Below, piece by piece: positions 6,024-36,865 of a stretch of 64,000 nucleotides of DNA. Both the position numbers and the translations under genes were made by a program. The DNA is from Streptomycetaceae bacterium (GTDB lineage Bacteria; Actinomycetota; Actinomycetes; Nanopelagicales; Nanopelagicaceae), in assembly GCA_027488575.1 (NCBI GenBank), contig JAIYBJ010000029.1, positions 62,001-126,000 on the forward strand, given 5' to 3'. Position 1 is the stretch's first letter, and each line of letters opens with the position of its first letter. Under the pieces are notes generated by a model. It was not told where the DNA came from. It saw only the letters and a program-made list of their open reading frames with translations, and did no database searches.

Positions 6024-7076
6024 CTAGGCGTGATTATCAGGCGTGTCGAAAAGACCGGGAGTAGTAGCCAAATCTGCAGGCGGAGTGCGCCCAATATGAG
6101 TCCAACCCAGTGGTGTCGCAATTCGGCCACGAGATGTTCGCGCCATAAACCCATTTCTGACCAAGAATGGTTCAGCGACAGATTCCACGGTTTCTGTTTC
6201 TTCTCCAACTGCTATGGCCAGTGTTGATAGTCCCACCGGCCCACCATTGAATCTCTCAATCAATGCGGTGAGCACTGCACGATCCAAACGATCCAAACCT
6301 TTTTCATCAACTTCATACATGAGCAATGCCGACATTGCATGCTCATGCGAGAGTGCGTTGCTTCCCTGTACTTGTGCAAAATCTCGAACTCTTCGTAACA
6401 ACCTGTTGGCAATTCTTGGGGTGCCGCGTGAGCGCCCCGCAACTTCATCAACCGCTTTTGAATCAATGCTTAATCCAAGTAATTGTGCACTTCTTGTAAT
6501 CACTGTTGCTAAATCTTTTTCGTCATAGAAATCAAGGTGTGCCGTAAATCCGAAACGATCGCGCAGCGGACTTGGAAGTAATCCGGCACGAGTGGTAGCG
6601 CCAACAAGAGTAAATCGTGGAAGCTGCAATGGAATTGCGGTGGCACCAGGTCCCTTACCAACTACAACATCTACCCTGAAATCCTCCATTGCAAGGTATA
6701 GGAGTTCTTCTGCAGGTCGTGGCAATCTATGTATTTCATCCAGAAACAAAATTTCGCCTTCAACTAATGAAGAAAGAATCGCCGCTAAATCACCCGCGTG
6801 TGTTATTGCCGGTCCACTGGTCACACGAATAGGGGTATTCATCTCACTAGCCAAAATCAAGGCCAAAGTTGTCTTACCTAAACCTGGCGGCCCTGAAAGC
6901 AATATGTGATCGGCTGCGCTTTCTCGTTTTCTAGCAGCAGTAAGGAGTACATCGATTTGTTGGCGCACTCGATCTTGGCCAATGAAATCATTTAATGTCT
7001 TAGGCCGCAGTGCGTGTTCCGCGGCGCCGTCATCGCTTCGCAATGCAGGAGTAACCAAGCGATCATCTGACGTCAT
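6024..7076 (-). CDS. ruvB: Holliday junction branch migration ATPase RuvB
   Basis: Hexameric AAA+ motor that drives branch migration on RuvA-bound Holliday junctions. The 350 residues show Walker A GPPGLGKT at 62-69, Walker B ILFLDEIH at 109-116, the sensor 1 stretch LVGATTRAG near 157-165, and the arginine finger in LRDRFG at 171-176. A winged-helix DNA-binding domain forms the C-terminus (GWTHIGR). Length and motif order are normal. The ATG overlaps the ruvA stop as ATGA. Confidence 0.98.
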
Positions 7077-7672
7077 TTTTTACCACTTTGAAGTGTCAAC
7101 TTGAGTAACGCGCCGAGCTCCATAGAAGCAATGTCATCCTGAGAAACAGTTGATAAAACAGTATTAATAGCCTCATCCGAATCTTTTGCTGAAAATCCAA
7201 GAGAGATCAATGCACTCGCTAATTGTTCGCGCCATACAGGTTGGTGAGAAATTCTTGCACCGCCGTGACCAAAGTCAGATAACTTGGATTTGAGTTCTAG
7301 TACCAAACGCTGTGCACCCTTTTTGCCGATGCCTGGGACTTTTTCAATTACTGAAATGTTCTCAGTATTTACTGCCTGTGCTAACTCTGAGGGTGTTAAC
7401 GCCCCCAAAATTGAGAGCGCTACCTTGGGCCCGATACCAGAAACAGTTTGGACTAGTTCAAACAGAACTCGCGATGCTTCATCACTAAAGCCATAGAGAG
7501 TTAATGAATCTTCGCGCACAACAAGAGATGTAAAAAGATGAGCCGGTGCACCTATAGTCAATGACGAGCTGGTGTGAGAGTTTATTAATACATTCATACC
7601 TACTCCCCCTACTTCAACAATTGCTCGGTCAAGAGATAGTGACTTAACTACTCCGTTTAGTGTTGCAATCAT
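7073..7672 (-). CDS. ruvA: Holliday junction DNA helicase subunit RuvA
   Basis: Tetrameric junction-binding protein that loads RuvB. I place the start at the ATG at 7672, giving 199 residues beginning MIATLNGVV, because this matches the OB-fold start of RuvA and produces an ATGA overlap with the ruvC stop. A longer in-frame reading from 7753 adds 27 residues that belong to ruvC coding sequence. Two helix-hairpin-helix motifs are visible ([10 protein letters not shown] and [12 protein letters not shown]), and domain III at the C-terminus ends in a serine/lysine tail. Overlaps on both sides indicate tight translational coupling in ruvCAB. Confidence 0.97.
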
Positions 7673-8202
7673 CGAAGTGCGGCCAATCTCTTCTTTTCGG
7701 CGGCTACTGCACTCTTGATTTTTGAGTTCGCACCCCCGCGCCAAATATGACAAATTGCTAACGCAAGAGCATCTGCGCTGTCTGCAGGTTTAGGTATCTC
7801 TTGAAGATTCAATAACCGTTTTACCATCTCGGAAACTTGTGACTTGTTGGCTCTTCCTGATCCAGTAACCGCAGCTTTAACTTCACTAGGAGTGTGCATG
7901 AATACTGGAATGTTATTTTGAGCTGCAACCAATAGTGCAATCCCAGCAGCTTGTGCGGTTCCCATCACTGTTCGTACATTGTGTTGGGAGAAAACTCTTT
8001 CCACTGCGATCACATCGGGTGAATACTTTTGTACCCATTGAGTTATTTCAGAGTGAAGGGAAAGTAGTCGATCATCAAGGTCAGCATCTGTTGGCGTCAT
8101 GATGACTCCAACGCCATCGAGTGACAAAGTAGAACCAGGTGCACCAGAGACGATGCCTACTCCGCATCTAGTTAAACCTGGATCAATGCCCAAAACTCGC
8201 AT
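7669..8202 (-). CDS. ruvC: Holliday junction resolvase RuvC
   Basis: Endonuclease that cuts Holliday junctions in the RuvABC complex. The 177-residue protein begins [14 protein letters not shown], giving catalytic Asp7 in the RNase H-like fold. The second acidic residue is in AVERVF near residue 69, and the C-terminal pair is in [16 protein letters not shown] box lies exactly six bases before the ATG, so the mRNA is probably leaderless and starts the ruvCAB-secDF-rel unit separately from yebC. Confidence 0.97.
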
Positions 8203-33023: not shown

Positions 33024-34091
33024 GTGGTACGTGTCACAGGAAACTTCCAGAGTGAGAGCCCTCTTCATCCAAAGGCTTTTGAGGTTCTCCATGCCGCCTT
33101 CGATAATGGCTGGGCTAATCCCGGCAAACTTTCACAATCGGGTTCAAAGGCCAATCAAGTAAGAAATCAAGCTCTTGAATCAATCGCTGCGGCTCTCAAA
33201 GTTCCTGTGGATTCGATCTTTGCATTTTCATCAATGTCCCTCGGGTACTACTTGGGAATCCAAGGGTTGTTAAAAGATTCATTGACCCTGGTTCATGGTG
33301 CGACGGATCGAAAAGATGTCTTTGCAATTGCATCGCGAACATCTCACCAAGTTCTTCCAAGTGCTCTGGACGGAAAACTTATTTCGCCCAGCCAGAAGTC
33401 ACCAAACTCCGTTCTTGCTCTCTCAGCGGCTAATGCTGAAACCGGAGTAATCCAAGAGTGTGAAGCGATTATTCGAAGTGTGAATACTGATCGAATTTTT
33501 CTAGATGCAACTGCAATTGGAATCCGGGGCCAAATAACACCCAACTATTCGACAGCAATCTTTGATAGCCGTTCTTGGTATGGCCCAAGCGAAATTGGCT
33601 TGTTGGTAATCAAAGATAAATCACAGTGGAGCAACCCACTTCCCCACCTCAATGCAGCCCATCCAAACTTTGACGCATCTCTCCCGCTCTTGCTGGCAAG
33701 TGCTGTAGCACTCGAGAATTTTTCTTCCGAAGTAGAAGATGCCAATAAGAGGGCAAGGGAATTCAACTGGCAGCTACGTGATTACTTTGCACATATTCCA
33801 GATGTAGATATAGCAGGCTCTTTAGATTCCAGTCTTGCTCATCTGCTGAGCGCTTCATTTATGAATTGCAATGGTGAAGAACTCTTGCGCGCAATTCAGA
33901 GTGACGGATTCAGTGTTGATTCCGGTTCTGCTTGCACAGCCGATAATTTGGAACCGAGCCACGTTTTAGCAGCGATGGGCGTTTTAACTCACGGCAATAT
34001 TCGAATCACCATTCATCCGGAAACAACACAAGAGGAAATAGATTCTCTGAAGTCATCAATTAAGAAGAATGTAGAGCGCTTGCGATCATGA
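33024..34091 (+). CDS. cysteine desulfurase-fold protein lacking the PLP lysine
   Basis: A 355-residue class V aminotransferase-fold protein. The C-terminal SVDSGSACTADNLEPSHVL keeps the mobile active-site loop with Cys304, and NAETG (137-141) and Asp161 keep part of the PLP site. The segment that is SxHKxxGPxGxG in NifS/IscS reads DSRSWYGPSEIG (181-192), placing Arg183 and Ser184 at the His and catalytic Lys positions. The stacking His is also changed (TDRKDVF). Normal PLP chemistry therefore looks impossible. It overlaps tusA by four bases; related actinobacteria have a fused desulfurase-TusA protein. Start is GTG at 33024. Confidence 0.85.
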   Translation: MVRVTGNFQSESPLHPKAFEVLHAAFDNGWANPGKLSQSGSKANQVRNQALESIAAALKVPVDSIFAFSSMSLGYYLGIQGLLKDSLTLVHGATDRKDVFAIASRTSHQVLPSALDGKLISPSQKSPNSVLALSAANAETGVIQECEAIIRSVNTDRIFLDATAIGIRGQITPNYSTAIFDSRSWYGPSEIGLLVIKDKSQWSNPLPHLNAAHPNFDASLPLLLASAVALENFSSEVEDANKRAREFNWQLRDYFAHIPDVDIAGSLDSSLAHLLSASFMNCNGEELLRAIQSDGFSVDSGSACTADNLEPSHVLAAMGVLTHGNIRITIHPETTQEEIDSLKSSIKKNVERLRS

Positions 34092-34294
34092 TTGAAATTG
34101 ATGCTCGTGGTTTGCGCTGCCCTCAGCCCATTATTGAGCTTGGAAAAAAGATAGATGAGTTAAAAAGTGGGGACGAACTCTTTCTGTACTCCGATGATCC
34201 AGCCACAGAGCCCGATCTGAATGCATGGGCGCGAATGACAGGGAACAAGTTTTCCAAAATTGAGAATGCGAAGTTTCTAATTACAAAGATTTAA
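34088..34294 (+). CDS. tusA: TusA family sulfur carrier
   Basis: A 68-residue TusA/SirA-like protein with the signature LRCPQPI, where Cys11 would carry persulfide sulfur. The ATG overlaps the upstream desulfurase-like gene (ATGA), so the two are made together. In known systems TusA takes sulfur from a desulfurase; here the partner lacks its PLP lysine, so the sulfur source is unclear. It converges on adoK and both stops share TTAA. Confidence 0.9.
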   Translation: MIEIDARGLRCPQPIIELGKKIDELKSGDELFLYSDDPATEPDLNAWARMTGNKFSKIENAKFLITKI

Positions 34295-35265
34295 TTAAGG
34301 TGTGCGCTAATTTCCGATGCTGCCGCATCTCCGTAGGCGCTCTTGAAACGATCGACAAATTGCTCAGGTGTAAATCGATACTCCTGAGTTCCTTTAGTTT
34401 CAATAACGTATGTAGCAATCATCGCACCGAGCTGTAGGCATCTTTCGTGCGATAACCCCCATGCCAGCCCAGCGATAAAGCCTGAACGAAATGAATCCCC
34501 CACGCCTGTTGGATCTATTTTGGCACTCTCTTTTGGACACAAAATTTTAATGAGCTCGCCACCTTTTGACTCAATTCGAGCACCCTTAGATCCTTGTGTG
34601 ACAACTCTGTATTTAACCCGAGAGAGAATCTCGGCATCGCTCCAACCAGTTTTCTGAATTGCTAGTGCCAACTCATATTCGTTCATAAACAAATAAGCAG
34701 CGCCATCGATCAGAGTTTTAATCTCATCGCCATCCATGCGAGCCATTTGCTGAGAAGGGTCTGCAGCAAATGCAATTGAACGTGCTCGTGCTACTTCGCT
34801 GTGACGCATCATTGCTTCGGGATCATCAGGTGAAATTACGATCAGATCTAGTTCGCCAGTCTTATCCATAATTGGTGCTAACTCGATGTTTCGCGCTTCA
34901 CTCATGGCTCCTGGAAAGAAGGACGCTATTTGATTGAGTTCAGTATCTGTTGTGACCATGAAATGGGCAGTAAATAATTCTTTGGAAATAAGAACGTGCG
35001 ATGTGTCTACGCCGTGACGCGAGAGCCAGGCTTCGTAATCAGGCCAATCTTTTCCAACAGCTGCGATCAAAATCGGGTTGAGGCCTAGCATCGCCATTCC
35101 AAAACAGATGTTGGCAGCACATCCGCCACGACGTACTTCCAGGTCATCAACGAGGAATGACAGAGAGACTTTTTCGAGTGAACCCGCGACGAGTGAATCC
35201 GTAAATTTTCCGGAGAAGGTCATCAAATGATCAAGACCAACTGAGCCAGCAACACCAATTCGCAT
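34291..35265 (-). CDS. adoK: adenosine kinase (PfkB family)
   Basis: Phosphorylates adenosine to AMP. The 324-residue sequence follows the mycobacterial AdoK pattern closely, with SLSFLVDDLEVRRGG, IASFFPGAMSEARNI, FAADPSQQMARMDG and the catalytic DPTGVGDSFRSGF motif (Asp base). These blocks distinguish it from generic sugar kinases. TAGTAT is exactly six bases before the ATG, so the mRNA is probably leaderless. Confidence 0.88.
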   Translation of the reverse strand: MRIGVAGSVGLDHLMTFSGKFTDSLVAGSLEKVSLSFLVDDLEVRRGGCAANICFGMAMLGLNPILIAAVGKDWPDYEAWLSRHGVDTSHVLISKELFTAHFMVTTDTELNQIASFFPGAMSEARNIELAPIMDKTGELDLIVISPDDPEAMMRHSEVARARSIAFAADPSQQMARMDGDEIKTLIDGAAYLFMNEYELALAIQKTGWSDAEILSRVKYRVVTQGSKGARIESKGGELIKILCPKESAKIDPTGVGDSFRSGFIAGLAWGLSHERCLQLGAMIATYVIETKGTQEYRFTPEQFVDRFKSAYGDAAASEISAHLN

Positions 35266-35290: not shown

Positions 35291-35638
35291 TTAGTTAAAA
35301 GAATCGCCACAGGCGCATGAGCCCTGAGCGTTTGGATTATCAATTGTGAAGCCTTGCTTCTCAATTGTGTCAACGAAATCGATTGTCGCGCCAGACAAAT
35401 AAGGATCACTCATCTTGTCGGTAATGACTTTGACGCTACCGAATTCACGGACGATATCTCCGTCGAGATTGCGATCATCGAAATAGAGTTGGTACTTCAA
35501 GCCAGAGCATCCACCAGGTTGAACTGCAACGCGTAGATTTAAATCATCGCGACCTTCTTGTGCCAATAGAGCTGCAACTTTTGATGCGGCGTTATCAGTC
35601 AGAAGGATGCCTGCTGTTGTGCTTGTCTCTGTGCTCAT
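35291..35638 (-). CDS. erpA: iron-sulfur cluster insertion protein ErpA/IscA
   Basis: A-type carrier that delivers Fe-S clusters to target enzymes. The 115 residues contain the three conserved cysteines Cys44 (PGGCSG), Cys108 and Cys110 (CACGDSF). It lies next to nadA, whose product needs a 4Fe-4S cluster, as in Streptomyces. The ATG has a GGGAGAG ribosome binding site, and a TAGGCT box at 35665-35670 lies 26 bases upstream, giving a short leader. Confidence 0.94.
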   Translation of the reverse strand: MSTETSTTAGILLTDNAASKVAALLAQEGRDDLNLRVAVQPGGCSGLKYQLYFDDRNLDGDIVREFGSVKVITDKMSDPYLSGATIDFVDTIEKQGFTIDNPNAQGSCACGDSFN

Positions 35639-35707: not shown

Positions 35708-36865
35708 ATGCGAGAGAATGACGCTGTGAATCTGAGTGAGTTGTTACTACTTGGACAAGGCAGTGACCTTGCCAGTGAACGCGGCGTCTCCTGCGATGGG
35801 CAATTACCTCCTGCAAGTGATCCAGACTTAGTCTCTCGTGCTCGTGCAGCCCGAAAAACACTCGGTTCAGATGTCCTGATTCTCGGTCATCACTATCAAC
35901 GCAATGAAGTTATTGAATTCGCTGACATAACTGGTGACTCATTTAAATTGGCTCAAGAAGCAGCTAAACAGAGCACAGTTGAAAATATTATTTTTTGTGG
36001 AGTGCACTTCATGGCAGAAAGTGCTGACATTCTCACGAGTGAGAATCAAAGAATTATTCTGCCAGATCTTGCAGCTGGTTGTTCAATGGCTGATATGGCA
36101 ACGGCAAATCAAGTTTCAAAATGCTGGGATGAACTTCAAAGCATTGGAGTATCTAACTCGGTTATTCCAGTTACATACATGAACTCATCTGCAGCCATTA
36201 AATCTTTCACCGGAGAACATGGTGGAACTATTTGTACTTCCTCAAATGCGAAAGCTGCCATGGAATGGGCATTTACACAGGGTGAGAAAATACTCTTCTT
36301 GCCAGACCAACACCTTGGTAGAAACACCGCAGTTCTCTCCTTGGGATTAACCCTTGATGATTGTGTGCTCTGGAATCCATGGAAGCCAATGGGAGGATTG
36401 AGCGAAGAACAGATTAAGAATGCCAAAGTAATTCTCTGGCGTGGCCACTGCTCAGTTCATGGAAGATTCTCAATTGACAGTGTTAATGAGATTCGTAACC
36501 GTGTTCCAGGAGTTCAAGTTTTAGTTCATCCTGAGTGCACTCACGAAGTAGTCAGTTCTGCAGATCAAGTTGGATCAACTGAGAAGATTATTCAAATAGT
36601 TAAAGCATCCGCAGCTGGTTCTAAGTGGGCCATTGGCACAGAACTTAACTTGGTCCAACGCATTTCTCAGATGAATCCTGATAAAGAAATCTATTTCCTT
36701 GATAAAGACATCTGTTATTGCTCCACCATGAATCGCATAGATCTACCCCACTTAGTGTGGGCGATGGAATCTCTGGTATCGGGCAAGGTGGTCAATCAAA
36801 TCCGTGTCGCACCAGAAGTTGCTCGCTACTCAAAACTCGCATTGGAAAGAATGCTCGCTCTATAG
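35708..36865 (+). CDS. nadA: quinolinate synthase A
   Basis: Condenses iminoaspartate and dihydroxyacetone phosphate to quinolinate in NAD synthesis. The 385 residues show the three-fold NadA repeat with HHYQRNEV, and likely 4Fe-4S ligands Cys125 (AAGCSMAD), Cys248 (WRGHCSVH) and Cys338 (CYCSTMNRI). HPECTHEV is also conserved. nadB and nadC are not in the window. It diverges from erpA. Confidence 0.96.
   Translation: MRENDAVNLSELLLLGQGSDLASERGVSCDGQLPPASDPDLVSRARAARKTLGSDVLILGHHYQRNEVIEFADITGDSFKLAQEAAKQSTVENIIFCGVHFMAESADILTSENQRIILPDLAAGCSMADMATANQVSKCWDELQSIGVSNSVIPVTYMNSSAAIKSFTGEHGGTICTSSNAKAAMEWAFTQGEKILFLPDQHLGRNTAVLSLGLTLDDCVLWNPWKPMGGLSEEQIKNAKVILWRGHCSVHGRFSIDSVNEIRNRVPGVQVLVHPECTHEVVSSADQVGSTEKIIQIVKASAAGSKWAIGTELNLVQRISQMNPDKEIYFLDKDICYCSTMNRIDLPHLVWAMESLVSGKVVNQIRVAPEVARYSKLALERMLAL

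Follow-up and report, generated by a model that had tools for sequence, protein, structure and literature searches.

Genes and residues at the locus

Within the window, i.e., the whole 64,000-nucleotide stretch that was analysed, an open reading frame of 355 amino acids with a GTG start codon encodes a lysine-less protein of the cysteine-desulfurase fold (hereafter CD; Table 1). The start codon of tusA overlaps the CD stop codon (ATGA, 34088–34091), and nadA lies 1.6 kb downstream of CD. The tusA product matches PF01206 with 65 bits and has the CPxP motif in the form CPQP, which supplies the sulfur-accepting cysteine.

Table 1. Coordinates of genes and residues at the CD locus (positions in the window).
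Feature	Position	Strand	Evidence
CD, lysine-less cysteine-desulfurase fold	33024..34091	+	Pfam, NCBIfam, AlphaFold2, Foldseek
Arg96, site of the IscS PLP-stacking His104	33309..33311	+	alignments
Asp161, equivalent of IscS Asp180 (PLP N1 contact), kept in 193/193 family members	33504..33506	+	
Asp181, site of the IscS PLP-phosphate contact Ser203	33564..33566	+	alignments
Arg183-Ser184 in place of His205-Lys206, Schiff-base lysine gone	33570..33575	+	alignments
Ser184, codon TCT	33573..33575	+	
Cys304, codon TGC, equivalent of the IscS persulfide Cys328	33933..33935	+	alignments
Arg327, equivalent of IscS Arg354, kept in 191/192 members covering the site	34002..34004	+	
tusA, 68 aa, 4-bp overlap with the CD stop	34088..34294	+	
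TusA Cys11 in the CPQP motif	34118..34120	+	
pfkB-type sugar/nucleoside kinase, kept where CD and nadA are lost	34291..35265	-	context
erpA, A-type Fe-S carrier, kept where CD and nadA are lost	35291..35638	-	context
nadA, quinolinate synthase, subtype co-occurring with CD	35708..36865	+	
NadA Cys29, putative partner site	35792..35794	+	
NadA Cys219, putative partner site	36362..36364	+	

CD aligns along its length with E. coli IscS. The block F-D181-S-R183-S184-W-Y-G-P is aligned with F-S203-G-H205-K206-I-Y-G-P, with Asp181-Ser182-Arg183-Ser184-Trp185 falling on Ser203-Gly204-His205-Lys206-Ile207 of IscS. Because Ser184 is placed on Lys206, the Schiff-base lysine is replaced by serine in CD. 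The sequence-only reading had reported Arg183 and Ser184 instead of His and Lys, together with the loss of the PLP-stacking His, and was right on both counts, as IscS His104 corresponds to Arg96. No other lysine was found at the Schiff-base site by alignment. K35, the only clade-specific lysine, lies in an N-terminal loop and was rejected; it is present in 97 of the 107 members from the Nanopelagicaceae (acI), and lysine-bearing relatives have Arg there.

The phosphate cup for PLP is also lost in CD (the sites of IscS T76 and S203). In the stretch aligned with IscS G74–T76, CD has Ser72 and the preceding Gly is missing, and the expected combination of phosphate-binding Thr/Ser and stacking His was not found. 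The Asp at the position of the phosphate Ser and the Arg at that of the stacking His are shared by many lysine-less members, and our guess is that this Arg–Asp pair occupies the empty PLP site in these proteins. D161 (IscS D180), N137, E139, and R327 are kept, the last corresponding to what we take to be the substrate-carboxylate Arg of IscS. Given these four residues, the old pocket of CD may still be filled by some ligand, even non-covalently bound PLP. Retention of PLP in this form, with lysine-independent chemistry such as slow desulfuration or persulfide formation, is nevertheless quite improbable, as the stacking His, the Thr and Ser of the phosphate cup, and the Lys are all lost, Asp in place of the phosphate Ser is unfavourable for phosphate, and the homologue from A. 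fulgidus is reported to be without activity (PMC7585200). Since the Schiff-base lysine by which a PLP desulfurase is defined is absent from the aligned site, CD should not carry that annotation.

The cysteine loop and the overall fold persist, as had been proposed from the letters of the DNA. The persulfide cysteine of the SGSAC loop is present in CD as Cys304 (GSACT). CD matches Aminotran_5 of Pfam at 1.6e-10, confirming a class V aminotransferase fold, and scores far under the cut-offs of the NCBIfam NifS/IscS models (TIGR03402, 101 bits vs 530.75), i.e., it is not recognised as an equivalog of these enzymes. The AlphaFold2 model has a pLDDT of 89.6, with confidence below 50 only at the N-terminus and at the tip of the Cys loop (303–306). 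No other internal stretch is modelled with such low confidence, which fits a mobile loop. The top Foldseek matches of the model are IscS and Nfs1, with TM scores of 0.83–0.88 to IscS/NifS/Nfs1 and 0.88 to A. fulgidus IscS.

Conservation and repeated loss of the lysine

The acI lineage is described as the most abundant among freshwater Actinobacteria. The closest ortholog of CD (L082, 'acI-Phila'), from an independent assembly, shares 87% identity and is identical at the PLP-site positions and the Cys. Sequencing error is ruled out by these shared residues and by those of the other acI orthologs. None of the 107 aligned acI orthologs has Lys at the Schiff-base site, which is occupied by S, A, T, or another residue, and all 106 that cover the loop have the equivalent of Cys304, at a mean identity of about 50%; of the 193 proteins in the wider family, 192 cover the Cys and all of these have it. 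Among 70 lysine-bearing orthologs, 65 alignment columns are nearly invariant, of which 19 are invariant in acI, and 11 of these 19 surviving columns fall within residues 301–327, i.e., the Cys loop and the segment after it. Only 0–6% of acI members retain the PLP positions G71, T72, H96, S181, and K184. A subclade of the family, genus g17 (L162–L170, L194, and L195), lacks TusA, has the Cys-loop sequence AGSACG, and frequently carries a bulky residue (Y, L, V, F, or I) at the old lysine site.

CD is under purifying selection. The dN/dS of close pairs is 0.07–0.17 in acI vs 0.09–0.21 in lysine-bearing relatives, and the acI ORFs of CD are nearly all uninterrupted, the exception being a fragment in genome G069 that contains a stop. 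The view that the gene is intact rather than a decaying pseudogene is thus borne out, by dN/dS values down to about 0.07 as much as by the uniform absence of Lys and presence of Cys. An alternative would be a slowly decaying relic, inactive since the acI ancestor, which is being purged, and in which the Cys is kept by chance. The absence of the gene from about half of the genus and the long branches to and within acI fit such decay. However, this reading is already contradicted by the selection data, with the Cys unchanged in every covering sequence despite a mean identity of about 50%, and the gene is lost only together with NadA and NadC; we regard it as very improbable.

Orthologs of CD are distributed across the class Actinomycetes at a common coxB–CD–tusA–pfkB–erpA–nadA locus, an arrangement that the window shares. 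In trees, CD groups with the lysine-bearing orthologs and not with the IscS/SufS paralogs of its own genome, and the next-best matches in acI genomes are IscS-type paralogs at 25–30% identity. Most class members have the full PLP site, SAHKWGGP and VEHS (Nocardioides, Kribbella, Kitasatospora, and Jiangella), the Catellatospora ortholog reads SARKWGGP, and TusA is fused to CD in Streptomyces-like genomes. The lysine-bearing proteins that accompany TusA in Streptomyces-like genomes, Nocardioides, Kribbella, and Catellatospora share the locus and the NadA subtype with CD, to which they are about 28–35% identical, but retain SA[HR]KWGGP, VEHS, and SGT, a complete PLP site that CD no longer has. 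In six Micromonosporaceae-type orthologs (L114, L126, L133, L140, L144, and L145), the motif is SARKWGGP, with His changed to Arg before the Lys and with the Lys and the stacking His kept.

Outside acI, lysine-less members were found in Knoellia, Janibacter, Terrabacter, Actinotalea, Flavimobilis, Promicromonospora, Cellulomonas, and some further families. The ancestral actinobacterial CD is reconstructed as lysine-bearing. A single origin of the lysine loss was considered and rejected: a quick tree gave one main event plus an isolated case in Nocardioides sp. AX2bis (L130), a careful tree, from which the trait columns were left out, needs no fewer than four changes, and a single lysine-less clade is weakly rejected by the AU test (p 0.03). 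The phylogeny suggests four or more losses of the lysine, including in Micrococcales, the long branches leaving the exact number unsure. The lysine-less state is clade-wide and recurrent and not a peculiarity of the gene in the window. The AX2bis protein (match 7001–8074) has a lone Lys-to-His change (GSSHHWGGP) inside an otherwise lysine-bearing clade, and the change is read as a recent, independent loss that makes this protein a useful natural contrast.

Co-inheritance with TusA and NadA

CD is not the sole desulfurase-family gene of the cell, and intact desulfurases coexist with it. The genome to which the window belongs encodes an intact SufS (FSGHK, L001), along with an IscS-type gene truncated at a contig end (L002), and the nearest complete relative has both a SufS and an IscS-type protein with the lysine (L203 and L208). 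Inactive subunits partner active ones in other PLP fold families, and a lysine-less CD chain could likewise form an obligate heterodimer with an intact IscS- or SufS-type desulfurase, steering its sulfur to TusA or NadA. The co-existence of intact desulfurases in the same genomes is in line with such pairing, as is the dimeric nature of class V desulfurases, and in E. coli the sulfur that TusA receives comes from the Cys loop of the opposite subunit of IscS (PMC2854127; PDB 3LVJ). The pairing is, however, rather improbable, considering that intact desulfurases persist in CD-less genomes too and that the lysine-bearing orthologs look self-sufficient by sequence.

TusA is found in 60 of the 121 genomes of the family. 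All of the 61 TusA genes in acI lie within about 140 bp of CD on the same strand, which indicates that TusA depends on CD. The dependence is not mutual: many acI genomes have a CD with the Cys kept and no TusA, and since lysine-less CD persists in them, TusA is linked to CD yet dispensable. TusA as the defining partner is therefore ruled out; roughly half of the acI genomes lack it, and there CD and its invariant Cys outlive it. The PLP-free role as a sulfur-transfer scaffold or persulfide carrier that had been suggested for the gene stands in part. It agrees with the lost PLP residues, the retained fold and Cys loop, the selection, and the coupling to tusA, but is an incomplete account. A PLP-independent role in sulfur transfer or as a ligand fits the features of CD. 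Strains of acI are described as lacking sulfate reduction (PMC5301498). In one acI genome (G012), contigs C11 and C47 carry two CD–TusA pairs of different type (L179 and L180), possibly a paralog or contamination. An apparent CD–TusA fusion in the acI genome G037 (L246, G037:C26:100-1700) forms a single frame, but was left out because ambiguous bases (XX) in the Cys loop make it untrustworthy.

The strict partner of CD is one subtype of NadA, together with the de novo NAD pathway, and not TusA; the sequence-only reading had overlooked this link despite the nearness of nadA. NadA is a quinolinate synthase with a [4Fe-4S] cluster that acts in de novo NAD synthesis. Of the 88 genomes surveyed in the genus, 44 have both CD and NadA and 43 have neither, an agreement of 87/88 that is a raw genome count with phylogeny ignored, as are the other co-occurrence figures given here. 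The sole mismatch is a NadA without CD in G334, a genome 70% complete. NadC, encoded at a distance of over 400 kb in complete genomes, was found in all six CD-bearing genomes tested and in none of the six CD-less ones. The NAD de novo synthesis module as a whole, i.e., CD kept or lost with NadA and NadC, has G334 and G186 as its exceptions, the latter (94% complete, a fragmented assembly) having the CD-linked NadA subtype without CD. In complete CD-less acI genomes, CD has been cleanly excised from between coxB and pfkB, and nadA is also gone. As pfkB and erpA between them are kept, CD and nadA must have been lost in two separate deletions.

The same association is seen in 148 genomes of the class. 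CD-bearing genomes have a long NadA (type L) in 91 cases, a fragment in one, none in two (incomplete genomes), and a short NadA (type S) in no case; CD-less genomes have a short NadA in 30 cases and a long one in nine. Five of these nine, sequenced from CD-less families, are a separate long subtype, 50–53% identical, and another, that of G186, is of the CD-linked subtype. Concordant switching of CD and NadA was observed inside about eight families (f1, f9, f14, f17, f21, f26, f33, and f39), so the linkage does not go back to one event. All 66 sequences of the CD-linked subtype carry two extra cysteines, C29 and C219. In the five NadAs sampled from the CD-less long subtype, these are replaced by Arg and Met, and C219 is also absent from the short type, which has a gap there. 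Other NadA types mature without CD, and the requirement for CD is thus not general for NadA. Among the papers searched, none was found on a link between CD and NadA in actinobacteria.

Given that nadA is lost along with CD-tusA, and that nadC is also missing in the six genomes checked, the nadA-less genomes, about half of the genus, are predicted to be NAD-precursor auxotrophs. Such auxotrophy may be one reason why acI bacteria are hard to grow.

Possible role in NadA maturation

The co-retention and co-loss of CD with NadA suggest that CD probably aids the maturation of NadA, itself doing no desulfurase chemistry. We lean, with moderate confidence, to CD being a PLP-independent maturation factor of one NadA subtype, in which Cys304 would carry a persulfide or ligate a nascent Fe–S cluster. 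As such, CD would be a pseudo-desulfurase of the class V desulfurase fold, orthologous to the actinobacterial 'cysteine desulfurase + TusA', which dropped the PLP chemistry and kept the mobile persulfide Cys. Cys304 might be charged by an intact desulfurase (SufS or IscS-type) or by another source of sulfane sulfur; alternatively, it may contribute one more ligand to a cluster under assembly, in the manner of A. fulgidus IscS. Sulfur or cluster would be passed to NadA, via TusA where present and otherwise directly, and the receiving sites on NadA are perhaps the extra cysteines C29 and C219. We infer the absence of PLP in CD, as well as the hand-over of sulfur or cluster and its direction. A more specific and tentative proposal, for which we see about one chance in three, is that a PLP-free desulfurase descendant became a client-specific sulfur or Fe–S donor, charging the one NadA subtype at C29/C219 through Cys304 (and TusA), with loss of the lysine converting enzymes into dedicated carriers on several occasions within Actinomycetes.

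The nearest precedent is archaeal. In A. fulgidus IscS, the Lys is changed to Asp, the protein is reported to be without desulfurase activity, and a Cys serves as ligand to a [2Fe-2S] cluster on IscU; IscS1 of M. acetivorans is similar (PMC7585200). The Asp is seen at the lysine site in the PDB sequence of 4EB5, and the family profile finds its best PDB matches in 4EB5 and 4R5F. Like CD, A. fulgidus IscS (4EB5, 4HVK, and 4R5F) and M. acetivorans IscS1 have an IscS fold in which the Lys is lost and the loop Cys is kept. However, A. fulgidus IscS is archaeal with IscU as its partner, whereas CD is bacterial with TusA and NadA as partners. In addition, A. fulgidus IscS keeps the stacking His and the phosphate Ser, with only Lys changed to Asp and His to Asn, while CD has lost the stacking His and the phosphate cup. 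Loss of the lysine from an IscS is thus not new in itself; the new points are a large bacterial family with recurrent loss, the accompanying disappearance of the stacking His and the phosphate cup, TusA as a partner, and a tie to NadA.

The precedent also lends itself to another explanation, in which no persulfide is formed and the sole task of Cys304 is to supply the missing ligand of a nascent Fe–S cluster on a scaffold or carrier (SufU or ErpA) that serves NadA. It is consistent with the lysine-less, Cys-ligand-donating A. fulgidus IscS being the best-scoring solved structure (PMC7585200) and with the presence of erpA in the same locus. No IscU gene adjoins CD, however, and tusA, co-transcribed by gene overlap and in acI only found beside CD (61/61), points to transfer of sulfur and not of a cluster where TusA is present. 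We consider this structural role unlikely, though it deserves to be kept in view.

Class V desulfurases dedicated to NAD synthesis beside NadA have been described in other bacteria. In B. subtilis, NAD synthesis requires a nifS-like gene (Sun and Setlow, as cited in PMC2807442), and in C. glutamicum a desulfurase is encoded in a nadA-nadC-sufS operon (PMC2807442; PMC6522883). The B. subtilis NifS (nadB/nifS) and the C. glutamicum SufS resemble CD in this role, with no orthology implied, but are annotated as ordinary PLP desulfurases. With the E. coli IscS–TusA pair, CD has in common the fold, the Cys loop, and TusA as acceptor (PMC2854127; PDB 3LVJ). In contrast to CD, which lacks the PLP site and follows NadA, E. 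coli IscS is a PLP enzyme with many acceptors that supports general Fe–S assembly.

Many genomes, including those of acI, contain genes similar to the desulfurase family whose products cannot act as PLP desulfurases. If CD matures NadA without PLP, the Cys loop that carries the persulfide would by itself be the part of the fold that is useful, and client-specific Fe–S maturation would exist in Actinobacteria. NadA activity or NAD auxotrophy with and without CD would offer a simple genetic handle on this role.
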